Below are positions 17,627 through 23,767 of a DNA stretch of 64,000 nucleotides, one piece after another. Position 1 is the first letter of the stretch. Every line of letters begins with the position of its first letter. The stretch spans positions 1-64,000 of the forward strand of contig JAMPXH010000004.1 in assembly GCA_023701285.1 (NCBI GenBank). Direction: 5' to 3'. Origin of the DNA: Candidatus Didemnitutus sp. GTDB taxonomy: Bacteria; Verrucomicrobiota; Verrucomicrobiia; Opitutales; Opitutaceae. Made by a program: the position numbers and the translations under genes. The notes under the pieces were generated by a model, which saw only the letters and a program-made list of their open reading frames with translations, was not told the DNA's origin and made no database searches.

Positions 17627-19222
17627 TCAGGGCGCCTGCAGGTAAACCTTTTTGTATTGATGGAAGCCCAGCAGCGCGGGAGCCCAGCCGCGCACGGCGG
17701 GGTGGATGAGGTAGGAGCGCACGCCGAAGAAGACTGGTGCGACGGGCGAGGCCTCGAGCAGGCGCGCCTCGGCCGTTTGGAAATGGGCGAGGCGCTCGCC
17801 GCCGCTGCCGGCGCGGGCGGCCGCGGCGAGGGCCGCGTCGTAGCGGGTGTCGGCCCAACCGGTCCAGTTGTTGGTGCCGCCGCCGACGAACATGTCGAGG
17901 AAGGTCACCGGATCGACGAAGTCGCCCACCCAGCGCGCGGTGGAGATCGCGTAGTTGAGCGTCTGTTGGTTCTGCACCCAAGTCTTCTGCTCCATCGGTG
18001 CGATCGTCACCGTGATGCCGAGCTCGCGCGCCCACATCGCCTGGATGACTTCGAGCACCTTGGCGTGCAGCTCGTCGTTGCGCACCTGCACCTCGAGGCG
18101 GGGGAAACCCTGGCCGCCGGCGAAACCGGCCGCGGCGAACAGCTCGCGCGCGGCGGCGGGATCGTGCGTGAGCCGCGCGGCGGACGTGTAGCCGGCGCAG
18201 TCCGGCGGCGTGTAGTGGAAGGCCGGAGCGCGCGTGCCGCGCAGCACGGTGCGCGCGAGCAGCGCGCGGTCGATGGCGAGCGACAGCGCGCGGCGCACGC
18301 GGACGTCGTCGAGCGGCGGGCGCGTCGTGTTGAAGCGCAGGAAGAAGGTCTCGAGGAACGGATCGAGGCGCAGCGATTGCGGCACAGTGCGGCGGTAGCG
18401 GTCGACCTTGGCGAGCGGCAGCTCGGCGGTGAGGTGCACCTGCCCGGCGCGGAAGTTGCGCTCGTCGACCTCGATGTTCTCCGTGGGGAAAAAGGTGATG
18501 CCGTGGAGACGCACCGTCGCGGCGTCCCAGTAGTGCGGATTGCGAACGACCTTCACGTGGGCGTTGGGCGACCACTCGGCGAGCTGGAACGGGCCGTTGC
18601 CCACGAGATGGCCGGCGCGCGTCCAGGCGGTGCCGCGCCGCTCCTGCGCGTCGAAGCGGGCGAGCACGGCGCGGTTGAGCGGAAACCAGATCGGGTTGGC
18701 CGTGAGGGCGGGCAGGTAAGGCGTCGGTCGCTCCAGCGTGAGTCGCAGCGTGGTGTCGTCGGAAGCCTCGGCACCGAGCTCCGTAGCGGACAGGCGGCCG
18801 GCATTGATCGCCTCGGCGTTTTTCAGCGGATGAAGCAGGTAGGCGTATTCGGCGGCGAGCGTGGGGAGCAGCGCGCGGCGCCACGCGGCGACGAAGTCGT
18901 GCGCGGTCAACGGCGTGCCGTCGGACCACTTCAGGCCCGGGCGGAGATGGAAGGTGTAGGTGAGCCCATCGGCGGAAACCTCCCAACGCGCGGCGGCGGC
19001 AGGGACGGCCTGGGAGCTTTCCTCGTCCAGCGCGCAGAGCCCTTCGAACAGCGCGAGCGCGATGTTCTGGTCGGTGAAGGCCGTCATCACCTGCGGGTCG
19101 AGGTCCTGCGGCTCGGCGCCGTTGCCGAGCAGGAGAATCTGGTCGCGGATGGCGTCGTCCACGGGCCGGGCGACGGCGAGGGTGACGGCGAAGAGACTGA
19201 GCAGGAGCAGACGGACGGACAT
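17627..19222 (-). CDS. Peptide ABC transporter substrate-binding protein (OppA-like)
   Basis: Signal peptide, NGAEPQDLDPQ, YTFHLRPGLKWSDGTPLTAHDFVAAWRR (SBP family 5). Confidence 0.93.
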   Translation of the reverse strand: MSVRLLLLSLFAVTLAVARPVDDAIRDQILLLGNGAEPQDLDPQVMTAFTDQNIALALFEGLCALDEESSQAVPAAAARWEVSADGLTYTFHLRPGLKWSDGTPLTAHDFVAAWRRALLPTLAAEYAYLLHPLKNAEAINAGRLSATELGAEASDDTTLRLTLERPTPYLPALTANPIWFPLNRAVLARFDAQERRGTAWTRAGHLVGNGPFQLAEWSPNAHVKVVRNPHYWDAATVRLHGITFFPTENIEVDERNFRAGQVHLTAELPLAKVDRYRRTVPQSLRLDPFLETFFLRFNTTRPPLDDVRVRRALSLAIDRALLARTVLRGTRAPAFHYTPPDCAGYTSAARLTHDPAAARELFAAAGFAGGQGFPRLEVQVRNDELHAKVLEVIQAMWARELGITVTIAPMEQKTWVQNQQTLNYAISTARWVGDFVDPVTFLDMFVGGGTNNWTGWADTRYDAALAAAARAGSGGERLAHFQTAEARLLEASPVAPVFFGVRSYLIHPAVRGWAPALLGFHQYKKVYLQAP

Positions 19223-19284
19223 GCGGGCAGCATGCACGCGACTTCCGGTGGCGCAAGGGGGTGAATTTCTGCGCGGGTGTGCCG

Positions 19285-21846
19285 ATGAGAAGGGAACTCC
19301 CGCCCCGCGTGAGCCACACCGATCCACTTTCCGCCGAGTCGCCGGCGGTCGAGGCCGCGCGTCTGCGGCACGCGGCCGCGTTGCGGAGCTATGCGCTGGA
19401 ATTGCTGCACGGCGATCGCGCCCGCAGCGAGGAAGTGCTCGCCACGACTTGGCAGGCTTGGGCGCGGGAATCGGCGCCGGCGGGTGCGGAAAGGGAAGCG
19501 GCCTGGCTTTTTGCGGAGCTGCGCCGGCGGGCAATGCTGCTCCAACGCGAGGTTGCCGCCCCGCCGGAGGCAGCGGGCGATGCGCAGGAAGACGACACGG
19601 CGGAAAGCCGTTTCGCCCTGCTCACGCTGAAACAGCGCGAGGCGCTGCGGTTGAAATTCCTGCACGGGTTCCGGCACGAGGAGATTGCCGGCATCGTCGA
19701 TCTGGGGCCGACGCAGGCCGCGCGCCTGCTGCACAACGCACTCGGGCGACTGGCTCCGGCGTTCCGCGCGTCCGAGGCGGGCGGGACGCTGGGGACGGAT
19801 GACCCGCGGCTGACGCTGGCGGCGCTCGGCGAACTCGAGGACGCGGCGTGGCGCGCGTGGGAGGCCGGCCAAGGCAATCCCGCCGCGGCGAACGTGCGCA
19901 TGGAAGAGATCCGGCGCGCCGCCCGCTGGGTGACTGCCCACTTCGCGAACGGTGGGCACCAGCGCACCAAGCGCGCGCGGCGCCGGCGCCGCTGGTGGCC
20001 CGGGCTGGTGGCGGCGGGCGTGCTGGTCCTTGGGCTCGGATATTTCGCCATCCGATCCAAGCCCGCGCAGCCCGATCCGCCGAACGAGCCAGCGGCGCAA
20101 ACGCGGGAACGCGGCTTTCCGTCGGCCTCCGCGCCCGCGGTCCCGCGCCGCGCCGGGTCGGATGTTGACGTGGCCGCGGCGGAGAAACGAGTGAGCGGGC
20201 CGGAGGCTGAGTCGCTCGGTCTTTTTCGCGATCGGCCGCGGGAGGGAACGTCAGGACACATTTTGGAGGCAGGTGAGTCTTTGCCGCCCGGGCCCGCGTT
20301 GACCGCAGGCGAAGACAGCCGGCGCAATGTGGCGCCCAGCCGCGCGCCCTTGGCCGTGTCGCGTGGGCGGCAGGGCGGGGCCGCCACTGCGGCACCGGAG
20401 GCAACGGGCCGCGGCGTGACGAGGGAGCTGTCGAACAGCGAGGTGGCGTCGGAGCACGCTTCGCTGACTTCACCGCTCCCCGGTTCGGCCGCTTCGTCAA
20501 ACGTCGGAACGGAATCGCGGCCGGCATCGCAGACCCCAGCCGGCCCGGCGGCGCATGCGGCGCGCGACGAGATGGCCGCTGTCGCCGTGGCGCATGATGC
20601 GTTGCAGGCCAGCACAGCGGGCGCAGCTGAAACGCTCGACTCGACCGATGTGGCGCCGATCACAGCGTTGAAACAGGCGCTCGGCGAGGGACGCTGGCCG
20701 AGTGCGGAGGAGGTGAATCGTGCGGGCTTGAAACAGTATTTCGCCCGCTGTGCGCCGGTCGCTCCCGGCGCGGCGGGCTTCGAGCCGAGCGTCGAGGCGG
20801 CGGAGCTGCCGTGGTCGTCGGGTCGGGTTGCCGTGCGATTTGCGGCGACCGCGCGGCCGCGGTCGCCAGTTTTGCGGGCGGCGGCGAATGTCATCCTGTT
20901 GCTCGACTCGTCGGGCTCGATGGACGCGCCGAATCGGTTGCCCTTGGTGCAGGCGGCGGTGGCCCAGTTGCTCGACCGGTTGCAGGCGGAGGACCGGATC
21001 GGGATCGTCACGTATGCGGGCGAGGCGCAGGTGTTGCTCGCGCCGCGCTTGCTCGGCGAGACGCGCGAGCTGCGCGAGCGTGTGCAGGCGCTCGTGCCGC
21101 GCGGGCAGACGAACGGCGGTGCCGGGCTGGAGCAGGCTTTCGCGCTCGCGATGCAGGATGAGAACGTCGCCGGCACACCGCGCGTGATCCTTTGCACCGA
21201 CGGCGAGTTCAACATGGGGCTGACGCGGGAGGATGAGCTCGAAGCGTTGGTGCGGCGTCATGCGGAGGCGGGTGTGCGGCTCGCGGTCTTCGGTTTCGGG
21301 CGGAGCGAGCGCATCGATCCGCGTTTGGAGCGTCTGGCCGCGCTGGCGCAGGGCGGCAGCGGTTTCGTGAACACCCGCGCGGACGCCGTCGCCGTCATGC
21401 TCACGCAGTTGGGCGACCTGATCGCGCCCGCGGCCGAGGCCGTGGAACTGCGCGTCGAGGTCGGCGGCGCCGAGCGAGGCGCAATCGTGGCGGACAAGGT
21501 GTTGCCCGGTGAAACGGTGAGCATCTGGAGCGCCGTCGAGCCCGGGGAAAATGCCCGGGCCCGTCTGACTTACCGGGCGGGATCGCCGGCGGAGCCGGGC
21601 GGCGCGACGCTCGATTGGGATGGTCGGGTGCTGCCGGTGGAGGAGACGGGCGCGGAGTTCCGTTTCGAAGCGGCGGTGGAGCGTCTGGCCGACCTCTTCG
21701 CAGCGGGCGCGCAGGGCAGCACGCGGGCGCAATGGGAGCAGTTGGAAGCTTGGGGCCGTCAGTGCGTGGACGATCCCGGCGGCTACCGCGCGGAGTTGCT
21801 GGCGCTGATCGCTCAGGCGCGTGCGGCCCGCGGGGAGGACGAGTGA
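19285..21846 (+). CDS. Fusion protein: ECF-like sigma factor + anti-sigma-like segment + TM helix + VWA domain
   Basis: Sigma regions 2/4 (TLKQREALRLKFLHGFRHEEIAGIVDLG), DDPRLTLAALGELED motif, TM WWPGLVAAGVLVLGLGYFAI, MIDAS-type VILLLDSSGSMD; start codon uncertain (19261 GTG/19285 ATG/19309 GTG). Confidence 0.85.
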   Translation: MRRELPPRVSHTDPLSAESPAVEAARLRHAAALRSYALELLHGDRARSEEVLATTWQAWARESAPAGAEREAAWLFAELRRRAMLLQREVAAPPEAAGDAQEDDTAESRFALLTLKQREALRLKFLHGFRHEEIAGIVDLGPTQAARLLHNALGRLAPAFRASEAGGTLGTDDPRLTLAALGELEDAAWRAWEAGQGNPAAANVRMEEIRRAARWVTAHFANGGHQRTKRARRRRRWWPGLVAAGVLVLGLGYFAIRSKPAQPDPPNEPAAQTRERGFPSASAPAVPRRAGSDVDVAAAEKRVSGPEAESLGLFRDRPREGTSGHILEAGESLPPGPALTAGEDSRRNVAPSRAPLAVSRGRQGGAATAAPEATGRGVTRELSNSEVASEHASLTSPLPGSAASSNVGTESRPASQTPAGPAAHAARDEMAAVAVAHDALQASTAGAAETLDSTDVAPITALKQALGEGRWPSAEEVNRAGLKQYFARCAPVAPGAAGFEPSVEAAELPWSSGRVAVRFAATARPRSPVLRAAANVILLLDSSGSMDAPNRLPLVQAAVAQLLDRLQAEDRIGIVTYAGEAQVLLAPRLLGETRELRERVQALVPRGQTNGGAGLEQAFALAMQDENVAGTPRVILCTDGEFNMGLTREDELEALVRRHAEAGVRLAVFGFGRSERIDPRLERLAALAQGGSGFVNTRADAVAVMLTQLGDLIAPAAEAVELRVEVGGAERGAIVADKVLPGETVSIWSAVEPGENARARLTYRAGSPAEPGGATLDWDGRVLPVEETGAEFRFEAAVERLADLFAAGAQGSTRAQWEQLEAWGRQCVDDPGGYRAELLALIAQARAARGEDE

Positions 21847-21930
21847 CGCGACCGGGCCGCGCGCCGCGTGGAATTTCGCTCGTTCGCGGCCTAATAAACC
21901 GCAGGCTCGCCCGTATCCGAGGCAGGTGAC

Positions 21931-22458
21931 GTGAACACCGACACACACAACGATGAACGCCGTGCCTTCGTGCAATCCGCCGTGGAACGCCACCAGGCGT
22001 CCTTGCTGCGCTACACCACGCGCCTGCTCCATGGCGATGTCGACCGGGCGCAGGATGTGGTGCAGGACGCGTTCGTCCGCCTCTGGGCGCAGGAGCCGGG
22101 CGGCGTGGCGGATCACCTCGCAGAGTGGCTGTTCACGGTGTGCCGCAACCGCGCGCTGGATTACCTACGCAAGGAGGGCCGCATGAAATTCTTCGCTCCC
22201 GGCCAGGCGGAGCGGCTGACGGCGGCGGAGCCGCGTCCCGGCAGCGGCTTCGAGCGTGCCGAGGCGCACGCCGCCGTGCTGCGCCTGCTCGAGCACTTGC
22301 CGCCGAACCAGCAGGAGGTCGTGCGCCTGAAGTTTCAAAATGGTTTCAGTTACAAGGAAATCAGCCGCATCACGTCGCTCTCGGTGACGAACGTCGGCTT
22401 CATCCTCCACACGGCGATCGCCCGGCTGCGCAAGGAAATGGCGGCCCAACCGGAATGA
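21931..22458 (+). CDS. ECF-type RNA polymerase sigma factor
   Basis: RAQDVVQDAFVRLWAQ, LRLLEHLPPNQQEVVRLKFQNGFSYKEISRITSLSVTNVGFILHTAIARLR. Confidence 0.92.
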   Translation: MNTDTHNDERRAFVQSAVERHQASLLRYTTRLLHGDVDRAQDVVQDAFVRLWAQEPGGVADHLAEWLFTVCRNRALDYLRKEGRMKFFAPGQAERLTAAEPRPGSGFERAEAHAAVLRLLEHLPPNQQEVVRLKFQNGFSYKEISRITSLSVTNVGFILHTAIARLRKEMAAQPE

Positions 22459-22471
22459 CGCCCCTTCCGCG

Positions 22472-23767
22472 ATGAACGAGCACGAGCTACTTTCCCCTGA
22501 TGATCCGCGCCTGACCGCCTATGCGCTCGGCGAGATGACCCCGGCGGAGCAGGCCGCCTTCGAGCGTCTGCTCGCCCAAGAACCGGCGGCGCGCGCCGCA
22601 GTGGAGGAGATCCGGACGATGGCGGCCGGACTCGATGCGGCGTTGCAGACCGAGGCCGCGGCACCTGCGCCAAGCCTGACACCGGTGCGACGGGAGGCGG
22701 TCGCCACGCGTCCGCTGCCGATGCCCCGGCGCGAAGGTCGGAAAATTCTCACGTTCCCGGGACTCTATTACTTGGGCGCGGGACTGGCCGCGGCTTGCTT
22801 CGCCTTGGTCTATGTCGCGGGCGAGCGATCGCGGGCGGATGCCCGGCGCTCCGGCGTCGCGCAAATCGTGGTGCACGCGCGCGACGATGCCGCCACGCCC
22901 GGCCTGCCCGGGCCGGCGAGCATGGAACGCCGGGCGGTGCGCGAGGCGGCTGCGCCGCGGAGCGAAGGCATCGCGCTGGTGGCGGCCGAGACGCAGGTGC
23001 CCGCCCGGTTCTTCGCTGTGGCGGAGGCGGCGACTTCGGTTTTCCCGCTCCGGGTCGGCAAGGAATCCTATGCGCAGGTGCGGGAGCGGTTGCGCAGCGG
23101 CGCCCGGCCGCCGCGCGAGATCGTGCAGGTGGCGGAGTTGATCAACGCCTTCGCCTACACCTGGCCGGCCGCGGTGGAAGGCGAGGCCTTCGCCGCGCTG
23201 CTGGAGGAGACGGCGGCGCCGTGGGCGGCGGAGCACCGTTTGGTGCGCGTGGGCTTGAAGGGCGTGGGTCCGGCCGCCGTCGAGATCGCGCGCGCGGCGC
23301 AGGTGCGGGTGGAATTCAATCCGGCGCGGGTGCGCGCGTGGCGGCTGATCGGGTTCGAGGGCGACGGACAGAGCCTCGGTGTCGCGGGTGGCCCGCGCGG
23401 CGAGACGATGCGCGGAGGCGAAACCGTGACCGCGCTCTACGAGATCGTGCCGGCCACCGGTGTCGCCCCGGAAGGCGATCCCGCGCTGTTGCACCTTTCG
23501 CTCGATTACGTCGATCCGGCGACGGGGCAGACGCGGCGGGTGGCGCGCCGGTTGGAGAGTCGCGGCGGCGGATTTGCGCAGGCCGGGGCGGACATGAAAT
23601 TCGTCGCCGCGTTGGCGGCCTTCGGGTTGAGCCTGCGCGACACGCCGTTGCCGGACACGGTCAACCTCGCGCAAATGGCGGACTGGGCGGAGGCGGGGAG
23701 CGGGGCGGATCCGCAGCGCCGCGAGTTCGTGGAGCTGATGCGCGCGGCGGCCGGGCGTTGGCAGTAA
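22472..23767 (+). CDS. Membrane anti-sigma-like protein with YfbK N-terminal and C-terminal (DUF3520-like) regions but no VWA domain
   Basis: DDPRLTAYALGEMTPAEQAAFERLL, single TM, ESYAQVRERLRSGARPPREIVQVAELINAFAY, then VRVEFNPARVRAWRLIGFEGDG...TALYEIVP. Confidence 0.85.
   Translation: MNEHELLSPDDPRLTAYALGEMTPAEQAAFERLLAQEPAARAAVEEIRTMAAGLDAALQTEAAAPAPSLTPVRREAVATRPLPMPRREGRKILTFPGLYYLGAGLAAACFALVYVAGERSRADARRSGVAQIVVHARDDAATPGLPGPASMERRAVREAAAPRSEGIALVAAETQVPARFFAVAEAATSVFPLRVGKESYAQVRERLRSGARPPREIVQVAELINAFAYTWPAAVEGEAFAALLEETAAPWAAEHRLVRVGLKGVGPAAVEIARAAQVRVEFNPARVRAWRLIGFEGDGQSLGVAGGPRGETMRGGETVTALYEIVPATGVAPEGDPALLHLSLDYVDPATGQTRRVARRLESRGGGFAQAGADMKFVAALAAFGLSLRDTPLPDTVNLAQMADWAEAGSGADPQRREFVELMRAAAGRWQ

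Follow-up and report, generated by a model that had tools for sequence, protein, structure and literature searches.

A degenerate sigma-like domain fused to an anti-sigma-type segment and a VWA domain in Opitutaceae: a possible transmembrane sigma mimic beside an intact ECF sigma/anti-sigma pair

The DNA analysed here (the window) is a 64,000-nucleotide stretch of a Candidatus Didemnitutus sp. contig (JAMPXH010000004.1, positions 1 to 64,000, forward strand), which carries on its plus strand, at 19261–21846, a single open and uninterrupted frame. The initial annotation had placed a membrane-tethered sigma factor with an anti-sigma-like segment and a VWA domain in this one frame, and the frame is open and holds all of these parts, with its start corrected to a GTG codon at 19309. 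This start is conserved: the 11 genus orthologues with readable upstream DNA all have GTG or TTG at this alignment column, which is also where the downstream stand-alone sigma gene starts. Position 19261 and the ATG at 19285 were rejected as starts, neither being kept in the sister genome while GTG 19309 is; position 19261 lies 5' of the likely promoter of the gene. By orthologue alignment the fused gene thus spans 19309–21846 (plus strand) and encodes 845 amino acids plus stop, and the surrounding +1 and antisense open reading frames look like shadow frames, as had been supposed. On the minus strand (window ~17627–19222), an extracellular solute-binding protein of family 5 (PF00496) is encoded divergently; the true start of its gene probably lies close to 19222, which would leave a short intergenic region shared with the fused gene.

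The encoded protein begins with a sigma2-like domain (aa 1–95; 19309–19593), degenerate across regions 2.1 to 2.4, and a well conserved sigma4 domain (aa 96–156; 19594–19776), followed by an anti-sigma-type domain (ASD; aa 157–212; 19777–19944; DDPRLTLAALGEL). Within the ASD, the previously noticed resemblance of DDPRLTLAALGELED to the anti-sigma motif of the gene at 22472 was borne out: it aligns with DDPRLTAYALGEM in the N-terminal anti-sigma segment of that protein, the similarity covering approximately 50 residues. The basic patch (RRRRR) and TM helix that follow (aa 213–252; 19945–20064) were also found as described, with the basic cluster and hydropathy peak in the identical place in 12/12 genus orthologues and the TM modelled as helix 229–249; by the positive-inside rule the segment is predicted to run N-in/C-out, which would leave the N-terminal part in the cytoplasm and the VWA domain outside. 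The long Ser/Ala/Pro-rich linker (aa 253–450; 20065–20658) is variable, with 62% identity to the nearest orthologue. It leads to a pre-VWA segment and VWA domain (aa 451–705; 20659–21423) with an intact MIDAS (D533-S535-S537, T601, D631), in keeping with the earlier claim; the triad DxSxS/T/D is complete in 20/21 fused proteins, the remaining one being truncated by a contig end. The C-terminal segment (aa 706–845; 21424–21843) is of YfbK_C type as judged by alignment and is shortened in this lineage.

The HMM assignment proposed in the initial annotation succeeded for sigma4 (Sigma70_r4_2, PF08281, 26 bits, barely above cut-off) and for the VWA domain (VWA/VWA_2, 58–59 bits), was weak for YfbK_C (PF12034, 14.7 bits against a cut-off of 25) and failed for Sigma70_r2, for which the fused protein in this window has no Pfam match. 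The vWF_A domain is likewise without a Pfam match, and in three genomes (G004, G005 and G010) both the vWF_A N-domain and YfbK_C are recognisable by similarity.

Downstream, in the same orientation, lie two further genes. The first encodes an intact stand-alone ECF sigma factor of 175 aa (21931–22458; PF04542, 44.8 bits; PF08281, 48.9 bits), a paralogue of the fused sigma part with 38% identity. The second is a membrane anti-sigma protein (22472–23767) composed of ASD, TM, vWF_A N-domain and YfbK_C, from which a VWA core of approximately 190 aa has been excised at about aa 263–273, a loss that the initial annotation had missed. Where other Opitutaceae loci were examined, this core is present in the anti-sigma protein between the vWF_A N-domain and YfbK_C. 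The core is cleanly excised in seven genus genomes, with the flanking vWF_A N-domain and YfbK_C left in frame; the excision remnants are of one kind in G005 and of another in the other six, and a tree built without the VWA columns also requires two changes, so that at least two loss events are indicated by the sequences. Besides the protein in the window, examples of the excision include L046:6558-8015. A fold search with the VWA-less anti-sigma, on a model of modest confidence (pLDDT 69), returned only generic beta-sandwich matches (adaptin ear) and no evidence of a new fold. In the four genus genomes that retain the anti-sigma VWA core, the fused gene lies ~12 kb away in three and adjacent in one; overall, linkage of the fused gene with the sigma/anti-sigma pair was seen in three genera, with two gene orders. 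In three genomes (G129, G175 and G112) the fused gene is present and a close stand-alone sigma was not detected at E 1e-15; its partner there may be another ECF factor, or may lie in an assembly gap.

The fused gene was found in 12 genomes of the genus, in one of which (G003) it is split as two contig-end pieces, and the thirteenth genus genome (G011, 74% complete) gave no match. A search of 252 family genomes added nine further cases in four more genera, so that a limitation of the fusion to one genus was rejected: the fused orthologues number 21 and come from five Opitutaceae genera. In both trees a single branch sets these 21 sequences apart, with support of 98/95 for the sigma part and 100/100 for the VWA part, indicating one origin of the fusion. 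Outside Opitutaceae, the fusion was absent from a sample of 384 class genomes at E 1e-25. The initial annotation had named a sequencing error that merges two genes, or orthologues consistently split into sigma and VWA genes, as what would refute it. Since the frame remains uninterrupted in independent genomes, down to ~32% identity, and dN/dS stays under 1 for every segment when the two closest genomes are compared, a sequencing merge is excluded. A frameshift or assembly error is thus an explanation of negligible probability, with nothing found in its favour: the frame is open in 21 independent assemblies, several of them with few contigs (one in G160, two in G159, seven in G007), and the orthologues fall into one clade. 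Split orthologues do exist, as in most of the family the same parts are two tandem genes without a fused gene, but this does not hold for the fused clade. The fused gene is a real gene, maintained by selection in several related genera. In many of the two-gene loci, a single stop is all that separates sigma from anti-sigma within a common frame, which makes loss of the stop codon in a duplicated sigma/anti-sigma-VWA pair the simplest origin that we can infer for the fusion.

Whether the sigma-like part still acts as a functional ECF (group 4) sigma factor was judged principally on the region 2.1/2.2 signature DxxQDxF (D/E42-Q45-D/E46-F48, with D or E counted at 42 and 46). The equivalents of D42, Q45, D46 and F48 in sigma70 contact the beta-prime clamp. 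All 21 fused proteins keep only 0 or 1 of the four residues, compared with all four in 30/31 stand-alone sigmas and three in the other one, and the region 2.3–2.4 residues V70, D77, K81, E82 and R84 have likewise largely disappeared from the fused sequences. Profile searches point the same way: Pfam region 2 was recognised in 1/12 fused proteins versus 11/11 stand-alone paralogues, Pfam region 4 (PF08281) was recognised in 10/12 fused proteins, and with TIGR02937 (cut-off 42.9 bits) the fused protein scored 18 bits and the stand-alone sigma 95.5. Of the two sigma regions originally assigned, region 4 is thereby confirmed, while region 2 persists as a fold with its sequence signature gone. Loss of the signature predicts, short of proof, a loss of RNAP binding, and the sigma part has probably ceased to work as a sigma factor. 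The linkage of sigma-like part and regulator in one membrane protein is supported. The idea of a functional sigma awaiting release is not, given the loss of the signature in 21/21, the poor recognition of region 2 by Pfam and the intact pair downstream.

Rough dN/dS estimates from a single genome pair (G000 versus G012; Nei-Gojobori) were 0.42 for sigma2, 0.058 for sigma4, 0.21 for the ASD, 0.57 for the linker and 0.046 for the VWA domain, with 0.067 for the stand-alone sigma, indicating strong purifying selection on sigma4 and VWA and relaxed selection on sigma2. These values bear on two alternatives. In the first, the protein would be an ECF sigma factor that is active but tethered to the membrane, restrained by its own ASD until VWA triggering frees it through regulated intramembrane proteolysis, as in the IutY/ECF52 mechanism. 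The order of the parts (sigma, anti-sigma-like part, TM, outer domain) is that of IutY and ECF52, and sigma4 is conserved; against this, the region 2 signature is gone throughout and sigma2 evolves far less constrained than the stand-alone sigma (0.42 versus 0.067), and we regard this alternative as improbable. In the second, only the ASD-TM-VWA portion would still work, as an additional anti-sigma/VWA receptor, and the sigma part would be a relic that does no more than mask the ASD, if that. The degenerate sigma2 beside a maintained ASD, TM and VWA would suit such a relic, which nevertheless sits poorly with a sigma4 as constrained as the VWA domain. Furthermore, sigma4 of the fused proteins has settled on distinct residues: Thr stands at position 124 in 21/21, where all stand-alone sigmas have Pro, and A145 is found in 20/21. 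Fixed differences such as Thr124 speak for an altered role rather than decay, and the sigma-like part has been deleted in none of the 21 fused proteins. We therefore consider a relic unlikely, if less so than an active sigma factor.

An AlphaFold2 model of the fused protein built on 12 orthologues (pLDDT 81, pTM 0.73) shows sigma2 and sigma4 as a compact unit, arranged as in anti-sigma-bound ECFs and PhyR. The best match was anti-sigma-bound RpoE (5uxx; Z 11.6, rmsd 3.6 over 139 residues), followed by SigW-RsiW (Z 10.6) and PhyR (9cb6; Z 10.5), while RNAP-bound ECFs aligned over both domains differ from the model by an rmsd near 26. As the Foldseek E-values were weak (best 4e-3), the match to the compact arrangement depends on a second aligner and on knowledge of the family, and an ECF factor modelled on its own may likewise come out compact.

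The fused and stand-alone genes carry different conserved promoters, again a feature beyond the initial annotation. Upstream of the fused gene, at 19262–19288 (plus strand), lies a sigma-28 (FliA)-like element, TGAATTTC-N11-GCCGATGA, whose exact spacing is kept in 9/11 congeners and which takes the form CAAGTTT-N12-CCGAT in other genera. The sigma-28 (FliA) consensus is TAAAGTTT-N11-GCCGATAA; the element matches it at 12/16 positions, a score equalled by 0/200 shuffles, and in most congeners the match is 11–13/16. At first sight the element appeared ECF-like, but an autoregulatory ECF promoter was rejected as the cross-genus form fits sigma-28, which further counts against an active sigma factor. 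Genome-wide, the element occurred 139 times versus 111 in the spacing control, i.e. without excess, so that an own regulon for such a factor is not apparent by motif (itself weak evidence); reversed-pattern controls were composition-biased and were not taken as null. Because these counts do not exceed the spacing control, support for a regulon of the element is confined to a few promoter-positioned matches (HDOD, PAS kinase, methyltransferase). CAAGTTT-N12-CCGAT was seen before genes for HDOD (L225, L223), PAS/kinase (L224, L239) and methyltransferase (L221, L222) proteins in genomes G000, G007, G008, G168, G006 and G172, with the PAS-kinase and methyltransferase genes preceded by the element in two genera each; these genes are candidate members of a motility regulon.

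G000 encodes a FliA-type sigma above the family cut-off, and the agreement of flagellin upstream regions with sigma-28 is mixed, being good in some genomes and poor in G000. Flagellin-family genes occur in 21/21 genomes with the fused gene versus 144/252 overall (Fisher p 7e-6, uncorrected for relatedness, and with a profile, PF00669, that also matches the hook-associated protein FlgL). The sigma-28-like motif together with the restriction to flagellin-bearing genomes suggests that the fused gene is likely expressed with motility genes.

The stand-alone sigma gene is preceded by a promoter-like CTAATAA-N14-CGTA (21891–21915, plus strand), an instance of a family-wide CTAAKAA-N14-CGT motif that differs from the promoter of the fused gene. 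In the 12 genus genomes CTAAKAA-N14-CGTM occurs 38 times versus 3 for the N12 spacing control, and most matches lie 0 to 90 bases ahead of start codons. The genes concerned, recurrent in different genomes and named from Pfam, are those for the sigma factor, exbD, tonB, TPR and DUF4139 proteins, and this set is probably the ECF regulon of the stand-alone sigma, comprising outer-membrane energy-transduction genes. Loci with the motif include L083, L087, L089, L106, L107, L108 and L110.

Taken together, the lost signature, the constraint on sigma4 and VWA, the fixed T124, the PhyR-like model, the linkage to the pair, the VWA loss in the anti-sigma and the co-occurrence with flagellin favour the reading that the fused protein is a membrane-spanning pseudo-sigma, or sigma mimic, that tunes the downstream sigma/anti-sigma pair (21931–23767), to which we would give an even chance. 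The fused gene would be switched on with the motility regulon, probably from its sigma-28-type promoter, as motif and gene distribution suggest. The cytoplasmic sigma2-sigma4 part and the ASD are predicted to hold the anti-sigma-bound arrangement, and the TM helix would lead to a periplasmic VWA domain able to bind a ligand at its MIDAS metal site. The mimic would then probably shift the balance between the intact sigma at 21931 and the VWA-less anti-sigma at 22472, either by competing for the anti-sigma domain, by analogy with PhyR and NepR, or through competition of its own ASD for the sigma factor, with the VWA sensor controlling either competition. The intact sigma would read the CTAAKAA-N14-CGT promoters before its own gene and the exbD, tonB, TPR and DUF4139 genes. 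It counts against such a mimic that most members of the family run the sigma/anti-sigma pair without it and that G129, G175 and G112 carry it with no close stand-alone sigma at E 1e-15. The fuller proposal is that the degenerate sigma factor has turned into the switch by which a VWA receptor acts in the cytoplasm, is expressed with the flagellar regulon and controls the neighbouring ECF sigma by partner competition, the anti-sigma having given up its own VWA sensor core in favour of the mimic; this is more tentative and somewhat doubtful as a whole.

Fused sigma/anti-sigma membrane proteins are already known, as is sigma mimicry in PhyR; if the sigma mimic proposed here is real, mimicry would be driven directly by an envelope sensor and not by phosphorylation. 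How a sigma factor turns into a sigma mimic can be tested directly in this family, since it offers natural intermediates: the two-gene pair, fusions with milder or stronger sigma2 decay, and partner anti-sigmas with or without the VWA core. The locus is also a caution for annotation pipelines, as a sigma-domain fusion is not always a sigma factor.

With a sigma-like part, an ASD and a TM in one polypeptide, the fused protein groups by architecture with the known hybrids of sigma and anti-sigma, IutY and ECF52 among them. In IutY (ECF243) of Pseudomonas putida, too, a single membrane protein contains a sigma part, a TM helix and a part that serves as anti-sigma and sensor, but its sigma domain is active and released by Prc and RseP, whereas the fused protein has lost the sigma2 signature, and the outer part of IutY resembles FecR rather than VWA. 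The actinobacterial ECF52/ECF53 proteins (SCO4117) share the succession of sigma, anti-sigma-like domain, TM, long Pro-rich stretch and extracellular domain; they differ in having a zinc-finger ASD and a carbohydrate-binding domain in place of a non-zinc ASD and VWA, are described only in Actinobacteria, and SCO4117 acts as a transcriptional activator. The two-gene Opitutaceae pair of an ECF sigma and a YfbK-type membrane anti-sigma/VWA protein has the same domains in the same order, and the fused clade is its paralogue; the pair, however, consists of two proteins, has an intact sigma region 2 and uses another promoter. A literature search limited to open papers returned no relevant report of a sigma-VWA fusion and, within that set, no description of a degenerate sigma, an ASD and an external VWA domain in one membrane protein. 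For the sigma part, the closest functional analogy would be PhyR, the anti-anti-sigma factor of the alphaproteobacterial general stress response. A published review describes PhyR as folding correctly like an ECF factor, although its regions for core-RNAP and promoter are degenerated, and as titrating an anti-sigma factor (PMC8103513). The sigma2-sigma4 fold, the degenerate RNAP-binding region and the compact arrangement in the model are common to both. PhyR, unlike the fused protein, is soluble, is controlled through a receiver domain and phosphorylation and lacks ASD, TM and VWA, and the anti-sigma titration demonstrated for PhyR is for the fused protein a prediction. As a Pfam scan found no receiver domain in it, the fused protein is not a PhyR, but it may work like one.
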